From NCBI GenBank assembly GCA_035574315.1, contig DATLYW010000025.1, positions 1-64,000 of the forward strand: 64,000 nt of DNA, given 5' to 3'. The notes below the pieces were generated by a model. The model made no database searches. It saw only the letters and a list, made by a program, of their open reading frames with translations, and was not told the origin of the DNA. This DNA comes from Candidatus Zixiibacteriota bacterium. GTDB lineage: Bacteria; Desulfobacterota; Binatia; UBA9968. Below are positions 38,264 to 40,190 of this stretch, one piece after another. Made by a program: the position numbers and the translations under genes. The stretch's first letter is position 1; each line of letters begins with the position of its first letter.

Positions 38264-39640
38264 ATGCCAAAAGACCTTCACACTTTCATCGCGCAGGAAG
38301 AAAGGAACCGCCCCGGCTCGGTGATCCGGGAAAAGAACCGTATCGACTGCAACCAGTACGAGACCATCGCCTACCTCAAGCACCTCGACCTGCGCAACGA
38401 GGCCAAGATGGTGCTGTTCGAGAACGTCCCGGCGCTCAACGGCGAGCCTTCCCGGTTTCCCCTGTTCTACAACCCCTGGGTGACGCGCCAGTTCGTCGCC
38501 GATTCGCTCGACATGGGAGACCTCAAATCGCCGATGGACCTCAGCCTGGAGGTCGCCCGGCGCGAGCTCAAGCGGGGCAGCGTCGAGGTCATCGCTCCGG
38601 AAAAAGCGCCGGTGAAAGAGACCGTGCTGCGGGGGGACAAAGCCGATCTGCGGGTGCTGCCGATTCCGATGCACCAGAAGGATGACGTCGGCCCCTATCT
38701 CACCATGGCCTGCGCGATGAAGGGCTTCAACGCGGATTTCTACGACATCACTTTCACCAAGAACCGCTACTACGAGCCGCGGCGCATGAGCTTTTCGGCC
38801 CACAAGCACCACCACCTCGAGGCCATCGCCACGGAATACGAGGAGCACAACGAGCGGGCGCCGGTGATCGTGATTCTGGGCCACCATCCGGCCTTCTTTC
38901 TCTCGACCTGCTGCATGACGCCTTACGGCAACGACGATTACCTCACCGCGTCGGCCTTTCTCGGCGAACCGCTGCGCCTTACGCCCTCGACGACATGGGG
39001 CGAGAAGTTTCTCGTCCCCGCCGACGCCGAGGTGATCATCGAGGGCGAGATCCCGCCGGGGGTTCGCGACAGCCAGAATCCCTTCGGCGAGATCCTCGGG
39101 TACTATCAGGTCGAGATGAAGGTCCCGGTCATCGAGGTGACGGCGATCACGGCCCGCAAGGACGCCATCGTCGAGGATTTCTGGCCGGGCCACATGGACC
39201 ACTGGAACCTCGGCAGCATCCCCAAGGAAGGCAGCGTCTATAACGTGATCAGGAAGAACATTCCGGGCGTCCGGGCGGTCCATCTGCCGCCGTCCGGAGC
39301 GGGCCGTTGCATCTGCTACATCTCGATCAAGAAGGAGTTCGAGAACGAGCCCAACAAGGCGGGCATGCAGGCGTTCGTGGAGATGCCCAACCTCAAGCTG
39401 GCGGTGATCGTCGACGACGACGTCGACGTCTTCAACGAGCGTGAGGTGATGTGGGCGGTGGCGACCCGGGTCCACTGGGACAAGGACATCGAGATCATCC
39501 GCGAGGTGCAGAGCTTCCGCGGATGGCTCGGCGACGCGGTGGCCATCATCGACGCCACGGTGCCGCTCTCGGGAGGGTATCCCAAGCGCAACGAGGTGCA
39601 TCCCGAGGCCTTCGCCCGCGTGGCGAAATTCTTCAAGTGA
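38264..39640 (+). CDS. UbiD-family (prenylated-FMN dependent) decarboxylase
   Basis: 458 residues, the normal UbiD-family size. The signature EGEIPPGVRDSQNPFGEILGY region and a distal DDDVD block, which carry the acidic and arginine residues around the prenyl-FMN, are present. FLSTCCMTPYGNDDY is also family-like. Members reversibly decarboxylate or carboxylate aromatic and alpha,beta-unsaturated acids. The substrate is unknown; nearby BcrC/HgdB-like and SDR genes fit anaerobic aromatic metabolism rather than only ubiquinone synthesis. No ubiX gene for cofactor supply is in the window. A GAGGAG ribosome site precedes the ATG. The probable selenoprotein gene starts 17 bp after its stop, suggesting co-transcription. 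Confidence 0.9.
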   Translation: MPKDLHTFIAQEERNRPGSVIREKNRIDCNQYETIAYLKHLDLRNEAKMVLFENVPALNGEPSRFPLFYNPWVTRQFVADSLDMGDLKSPMDLSLEVARRELKRGSVEVIAPEKAPVKETVLRGDKADLRVLPIPMHQKDDVGPYLTMACAMKGFNADFYDITFTKNRYYEPRRMSFSAHKHHHLEAIATEYEEHNERAPVIVILGHHPAFFLSTCCMTPYGNDDYLTASAFLGEPLRLTPSTTWGEKFLVPADAEVIIEGEIPPGVRDSQNPFGEILGYYQVEMKVPVIEVTAITARKDAIVEDFWPGHMDHWNLGSIPKEGSVYNVIRKNIPGVRAVHLPPSGAGRCICYISIKKEFENEPNKAGMQAFVEMPNLKLAVIVDDDVDVFNEREVMWAVATRVHWDKDIEIIREVQSFRGWLGDAVAIIDATVPLSGGYPKRNEVHPEAFARVAKFFK

Positions 39641-39657
39641 GGAGGCGAGGAGCAGGT

Positions 39658-40005
39658 ATGGCCGGCAAGCTCAGGTTCATCTACAAGGCGACGTGAACGA
39701 CGTGCCGCAAAGCAAGAAGTTTCTTGCAAGCCAGAAAGGTCGATTTCGAGGAGAGGGAATACGGCAGGAACCCGCTGACCGAGCGGGAGCTGCGCGAGAT
39801 CATCGGCGACGGGCCCATCGAGGAGTTCTTGAACCCGCGGACGCCGCTCTACCGCGAAAAGAACATGAAGCAGAAGCCGCCTTCCAGGGAGGAAGCGATC
39901 CGGCTGATGCTCAAGGACCAGAACCTGCTCAAGCGGCCCGTGATCATCAAAGGCAAGACCCGGCTGACGGGATTCAACGAGGCGGCGCTGAAAGAGATCC
40001 TCTAG
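39658..40005 (+). CDS. Probable selenoprotein of the ArsC/Spx thioredoxin-fold family (in-frame TGA = Sec13)
   Basis: Reading from the ATG at 39658, with AGGAG 6 bp upstream, gives MAGKLRFIYKAT, then TGA at 39694-39696, then in the same frame TTCRKARSFLQARKVDFEER and onward to the stop at 40003. The total is 115 residues if TGA is selenocysteine, the usual ArsC/Spx length. The TGA falls exactly where the redox-active Cys of the CxxC motif sits, giving U-T-T-C-R-K-A. The C-terminus has the typical LLKRPVIIKGKTRLTGF block with the cis-proline region. A hairpin with GU in the loop follows at bacterial SECIS distance. Expected role: a thiol/selenol redox protein, possibly an arsenate-reductase-like or Grx-like enzyme. 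A pseudogene or a non-Sec truncated start downstream is the alternative. No sel genes are in the window. Confidence 0.8.
39712..39727 (+). promoter_or_regulatory. Candidate bacterial SECIS hairpin
   Basis: GCAAGA pairs perfectly with TCTTGC around the loop AGTT. The loop G is 23 nt after the last base of the TGA, within the 16-37 nt window known for bacterial SECIS elements, and the loop carries the expected GU. An A-rich internal loop and a weak two-pair lower stem (GC with GC) follow. This is the element that would recruit SelB to decode the TGA. Confidence 0.65.
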
Positions 40006-40060: not shown

Positions 40061-40126
40061 TCTTCTGCGGCGCTCCGCACGGCAGCGGCTCGAACGGAGC
40101 GAAGCGATCCAACGGCCTGAACCCAC
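40061..40126. repeat. Dispersed GAACGGAGCGAAGCG repeat, copy B
   Basis: Contains CTGCGGCGCTCCGCACGGCA and CTCGAACGGAGCGAAGCG, aligning with the copy at 38130-38225 over about 65 bp. It runs directly into the TTGAACNN tandem array. Confidence 0.6.
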
Positions 40127-40190
40127 TTGAACCCTTGAACCCCTGAACTTTTGAACTCTTGAACCCTTGAACTTTTGAACCCTTGAACTC
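40127..40190. repeat. Eight-unit tandem repeat of TTGAACNN
   Basis: Exactly eight 8-bp units: TTGAAC (one unit starts CTGAAC) followed by CC, TT or TC. It seems to have grown from the GAAC phrases at the end of the dispersed repeat. An 8-bp period does not fit a reading frame, and no gene covers it. Confidence 0.85.

Follow-up and report, generated by a model that had tools for sequence, protein, structure and literature searches.

The gene spxU (a name used here) encodes a small ArsC/Spx-fold protein that is very probably a real selenoprotein, with selenocysteine (Sec, U) at residue 13 encoded by an in-frame TGA. It lies in the window, the whole stretch of 64,000 nucleotides analysed from a Candidatus Zixiibacteriota contig. 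The best explanation of the data, with a probability of roughly 0.7, is that the UGA is decoded as Sec and that the product, SpxU, acts as a selenol/thiol oxidoreductase resembling YffB or the glutaredoxins in its way of working. At the level of sequence, the Sec site, the SECIS hairpin, the decoding machinery, the fold family and the conserved UxxC motif are shown. The features discussed are the following, all on the forward (+) strand of the window.

38264..39640, + strand, ubiD-family decarboxylase gene, 458 aa (Pfam UbiD 149.8 bits, UbiD_C 91.4 bits)
39640..39657, + strand, gap between ubiD and spxU with an AGGAGG/GAGGAG ribosome-binding stretch, predicted from sequence
39658..40005, + strand, spxU, ArsC/Spx-fold selenoprotein gene, 115 residues, TGA read as Sec
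39694..39696, + strand, TGA for Sec13, replacing the attacking Cys of UxxC; kept in homologues of the order, TGA or Cys in family f7
39703..39705, + strand, Cys16, the second residue of UxxC, invariant in the 43-sequence alignment
39712..39727, + strand, SECIS hairpin GCAAGA-AGTT-TCTTGC, 6-bp stem and AGUU loop, DNA identical in 18 of 18 genes of the order

Gene and protein features

The spxU frame consists of 116 codons from ATG 39658 to TAG 40003-40005, and the TGA is its sole interruption. Translation with TGA read as U gives MAGKLRFIYKATUTTCRKARSFLQ...LLKRPVIIKGKTRLTGFNEAALKEIL, a protein of 115 residues with the motif U13-T-T-C16-R17. With standard decoding, the sole listed open reading frame is one of 93 aa from TTG 39724. 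The part upstream of the TGA had been proposed to have its own ribosome site, and the AGGAGG/GAGGAG stretch is indeed found right behind the ubiD stop (39638-39640) and before ATG 39658.

The product scores 60.4 bits against Pfam ArsC (PF03960; gathering cut-off 24), and a weak match to Pfam Glutaredoxin was recorded (27.0 bits, cut-off 22.9). The model of the Spx/MgsR-related subfamily, TIGR01617, is reached with 81.8 bits (cut-off 75.05); several f7 relatives score under this cut-off. Invariant residues in the alignment are F7, U/C13, C16, R17, R33, R93 and P94. An AlphaFold2 model, predicted from the window protein aligned with related loci, has a pLDDT of 86.7, and its Foldseek neighbours include Spx (1z3e, TM 0.83), YffB (1rw1, TM 0.79) and ArsC (TM 0.70).

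The internal TGA as a selenocysteine codon

Homologues were compared in the window genome's order (35 genomes) and in f7, a sister family in the class (41 genomes). Each of the 18 homologues of the order that are full-length or nearly so contains exactly one TGA, at the identical position; apart from the window protein itself they are 62-82% identical to the spxU product. The codons upstream of the TGA are conserved in frame among the homologues. A close match (E ~1e-39 or better) is present in 40 of the 41 f7 genomes, and codon 13 is TGA in 28 and Cys (TGC or TGT) in 11 of the 39 copies located and read, a count that omits the copy in L154/G461, missed by the motif search. Residue 13 is also U in a more distant clade of the phylum (L042-L047, L049). 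In a tree built with residue 13 masked, in which few columns are available and many forks are open, the Sec/Cys state requires at least four changes across the order and f7.

These observations uphold the original prediction of an in-frame TGA at the redox-active Cys of an ArsC/Spx-family gene: the TGA falls on the attacking residue of UxxC, and homologues carry C or U there, as was to be checked in them. Since the TGA recurs across tens of genomes, it is not a sequencing error.

SECIS hairpin

The TGA and the start of the hairpin loop are 21 nt apart, and the second and third loop positions are G and U. Bacterial SECIS elements have been described by a loop of 3-9 nt, a stem of 4-16 bp, a G in the first two loop positions, a spacing of 16-37 nt and an MFE of -7.5 or lower (PMC13188914). 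With its AGUU loop, 6-bp stem and 21 nt spacing the spxU hairpin agrees with this description, and the MFE is -7.7 when 30 nt are folded and -9.7 for 48 nt; the earlier claim of a hairpin with GU in its loop at bacterial SECIS distance is thus borne out. Rfam gave no match over the window at the gathering threshold, nor over 39640-39800 at E values up to 10. Compared with synonymous-codon samples the folding energy is unremarkable (z -0.5 to -1.6); it was dropped as support for the SECIS and codon freezing was used instead. The case for a selenoprotein is built on the conservation of the TGA and of codons, not on folding energy.

Among the 18 genes of the order, 34 invariant residues are degenerate. 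Just five of these are encoded by a single codon in every genome: the A-R-S-F-L stretch of the hairpin, codons +6 to +10 (GCA AGA AGT TTC TTG). The remaining 29 use 2 to 6 codons. Under random placement the chance of exactly these five single-codon columns among 34 is 3.6e-6, a figure that ignores kinship, which is common to all columns. Of the 28 Sec forms in f7, 21 have the exact motif, with either A or G as the first loop base; none of the 11 Cys forms has it (p = 2e-5). In four Sec forms of f7 (L133, L140, L150, L156) the stem differs, being displaced by one base and having 7-8 pairs, and the AGUU loop is retained; apart from such divergent stems the stem is nearly invariant. The remnant AAGTTTC is retained in some Cys forms (L117, L124, L126), as expected after loss of Sec, and we infer from the sequences that the direction of change was from Sec to Cys.

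Were the TGA an error of sequencing or the stop of a pseudogene, the product would have at most 93 residues, from TTG 39724. This would fit the standard-code frame, the only one listed, and decayed spxU remnants do occur in relatives (see below). Against this, the TGA is shared by 18 genomes of the order and by 28 of the f7 copies located, which come from many genera, the codons before it are conserved in frame, and codon choice is frozen across the hairpin alone. For practical purposes these comparisons exclude both an error and a pseudogene, and the probability of either is negligible.

Selenocysteine machinery

The window genome carries selA (596 bits), selB (400 bits) and selD in one minus-strand cluster on contig C33, where selD has its own in-frame TGA; tRNA-Sec is located at C33:54730-54820 with 77 bits (gathering score 47). 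The prediction that selA, selB, selC and selD should accompany the gene thus agrees with the genome, where selA, selB, a Sec-containing selD and tRNA-Sec are all present. Among 49 genomes checked, selB was detected in 40. It is absent from two genomes with the Cys form (G297, G254), and other Cys-form genomes retain it. The selB search gave no match in the TGA-form MAGs G009 and G022, which may reflect MAG incompleteness.

Proposed function

SpxU is probably an oxidoreductase rather than a regulator; its redox role, reductant and substrate are inferred. UGA codon 13 would be translated as Sec by the SelA, SelB, SelD and tRNA-Sec of the genome, and the hairpin that follows after 21 nt would direct this. 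The Sec13 selenol, placed just before helix 1 of the thioredoxin-like ArsC/Spx fold, would attack an oxidised substrate, Cys16 would resolve the intermediate as a selenenyl-sulfide, and the latter would then be reduced by glutathione/glutaredoxin or by thioredoxin. Thiol-oxidoreductase selenoproteins usually have Sec where a CxxC motif has its attacking Cys, together with a conserved second Cys. In genome G017, spxU adjoins bolA and a glutaredoxin-family gene, which favours this role. The assignment draws on fold and motif, and among solved structures it is Spx regulators that come closest, which speaks against it.

SpxU could instead be a regulator of the Spx kind, binding to RNA polymerase, with UxxC serving as its redox switch. 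Among solved structures, Spx gives the best relatives and the best fold matches, and TIGR01617, which the product reaches, names the Spx/MgsR regulators. The scores against the Spx-specific models NF002459 (60.1, cut-off 123), NF009210 (42.9, cut-off 159) and NF009885 (40.7, cut-off 152) nevertheless stay well below their thresholds. As an indirect indication, the column of Spx Gly52, which we take to be the alpha-CTD contact of RNA polymerase, varies between G, D, E, S and V in the order, and SpxU has 115 residues against 132 in Bacillus subtilis Spx. A regulatory function is unlikely on these grounds.

Membership of the Pfam ArsC family, the CX3R loop (U13-x3-R17) and the alignment of Arg61 and Arg93 with two of the ArsC arginines would also suit a selenocysteine arsenate reductase. 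The HX3CX3R motif and the arginine triad of ArsC have been described (PMC3169414). Arsenate reduction is disfavoured because the triad is incomplete in SpxU, its third arginine being missing (Phe106 region), because Tyr9 occupies the His position of HX3CX3R, and because the TIGR00014 score is low (37.9 bits, cut-off 106.05). Moreover, Arg61 is replaced by Lys in many f7 members, and no ars gene is found among the identified neighbours. The chance that SpxU reduces arsenate appears slight.

Comparison with known systems

A 2006 listing includes 'ArsC-like' selenoproteins of deltaproteobacteria (PMC1794560), 'Arsenate reductase 2' (cd03032, UxxC) is found in the 2008 GOS listing (PMC2398784), and a UxxC 'Arsenate reductase-like protein' appears in later reviews (PMC9312934, PMC13188914). 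NCBIfam holds a model for UxxC ArsC-like selenoproteins, NF041106 (ArsC_rel_Se_1), with a curated cut-off of 85 bits. SpxU shares with GOS 'Arsenate reductase 2' and NF041106 the small ArsC/Spx-type protein, Sec as the first residue of UxxC and a bacterial SECIS; the GOS protein and the window clade were compared at the level of the published listing. Membership of NF041106 was rejected, the window protein scoring 34.5 and two relatives of the order 42.6 and 38.6 against 85. Because of this low score, and because the spxU sequences of the order form one branch of the tree, the sequence data give good support to the view that spxU represents a new clade of an already catalogued selenoprotein kind (UxxC ArsC/Spx). 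The novelty originally seen in a Sec-containing ArsC-like protein therefore holds for the clade and not for the kind, which is catalogued in PMC2398784, PMC9312934, PMC13188914 and NF041106. Among records with a name, the closest are MAGs labelled Deltaproteobacteria bacterium and Syntrophobacter sp. SbD2. Searches of plasmid records gave no DNA match, and searches of the literature on selenoproteins together with Spx or with Binatota returned nothing relevant.

In common with Spx/MgsR (B. subtilis Spx, 1z3e), SpxU has the fold (TM 0.83), the position of the CxxC and the LL[RK]RP segment. It differs in having Sec for Cys10, in falling below the Spx-specific models and in its shorter C-terminus. 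With YffB (Pseudomonas aeruginosa 1rw1; Brucella melitensis 2kok) it shares the fold (TM 0.79), a length of ~115 residues and an incomplete ArsC Arg triad; Bm-YffB, however, has one Cys only, in contrast to UxxC in SpxU. From its structure and from binding evidence, YffB was proposed to reduce thiols in a glutathione-dependent manner, as a thiol reductase (PMC3169414). A Sec form of glutaredoxin-type ArsC, UxxS, is described from marine bacteria (PMC1088965). Glutaredoxin-type ArsC (E. coli) and this UxxS form belong to the same superfamily as SpxU and share the CX3R loop; SpxU differs from them by UxxC, by the incomplete Arg triad and by a TIGR00014 score under the cut-off.

Other Sec candidates were observed in the genomes. 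Three ArsC-type frames, L055 (G356:C8), L059 (G276:C14) and L062 (G155:C22), have TGA for the HNPxC cysteine (YHNPSUGKSRG, YHNPGUGQSRG) and are probable Sec arsenate reductases of the UxxS type described from marine data. L060 (G069:C281) is a glutaredoxin-like frame with an active-site TGA (FYHRPGUATC), probably a selenoprotein of the Uxx-star type.

Gene neighbourhood and ubiD

The ubiD gene ends 17 nt upstream of spxU and, because of this short gap, co-transcription of the two is likely. The window UbiD scores 215.9 against TIGR00148, under the cut-off of 244.85. In 14 of the 18 genes of the order, ubiD lies directly upstream of spxU on the same strand. Among the other four, ubiD is ~2.2 kb off in G033, the contig ends in G015, and no ubiD is found there in G017 and G019. 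The pair is common to families f1 and f3 despite a differing wider context, which contains SDR, ALDH and PilT-like genes in f1 and CutA, HisG-like and tRNA-binding genes in f3. A second context occurs in G017 (L087 7476-8662), with the gene order bolA, glutaredoxin family, spxU and DUF6800.

An obligate ubiD-spxU pair was ruled out, as 13 genomes of the order keep a ubiD orthologue without an intact spxU; where this was read, purC, mpsC or other genes come next. In the seven f7 genomes with a homologue that were searched, no ubiD relative was found at E 1e-60, and the context in f7 differs. The retention of ubiD without spxU and the lack of a ubiD relative in f7 therefore point to a neighbourhood and not to an obligate pair. 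The link to a UbiD-family decarboxylase that had been put forward is accordingly real but loose: adjacency recurs within one order, co-occurrence breaks down in the 13 genomes, and a functional tie is putative.

If SpxU were a selenol reductase serving specifically the neighbouring UbiD, for example by protecting UbiD or its pathway from oxidation, this would account for ubiD being immediately upstream in most cases and in two families of otherwise different context. Such a role is hard to reconcile with the 13 genomes that have ubiD and lack an intact spxU, with the location of spxU elsewhere in G017 and G019, and with the seven f7 genomes that have a homologue and no ubiD relative, and it is judged improbable. 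If true, SpxU as a dedicated UbiD partner would wire a selenoprotein into UbiD-type decarboxylation.

Decayed copies were also found. Only the last spxU codons are left behind ubiD in G013 (L105 1270-1500) and G014:C502 (L094 420-700), and only the C-terminal half is left in G004 (L088 3500-3720), behind a glutaredoxin-family gene. The remnants keep the 3' end only, and the TGA and SECIS are gone; G014 has an intact spxU on another contig. Just behind spxU in the window, at 40118-40190, lies an array of the 8-bp unit CTTGAACC. Similar TTGAAC repeats replace the lost 5' part of spxU in G013 (L105) and G014:C502 (L094), which suggests that they mark deletion or insertion sites.

Significance

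Standard annotation would end spxU at the TGA or start it from the downstream TTG, and TIGR01617 would label SpxU as an RNA-polymerase-binding regulator; both could mislead. Family f7 constitutes a natural experiment, in which closely related Sec and Cys forms exist and the Cys forms are without an intact SECIS motif. A single genus contributes both Sec forms (L134, L149) and Cys forms (L124, L126). Paired enzymes from this family could test the contribution of Sec to the fold and the erosion of the SECIS after the exchange of Sec for Cys.
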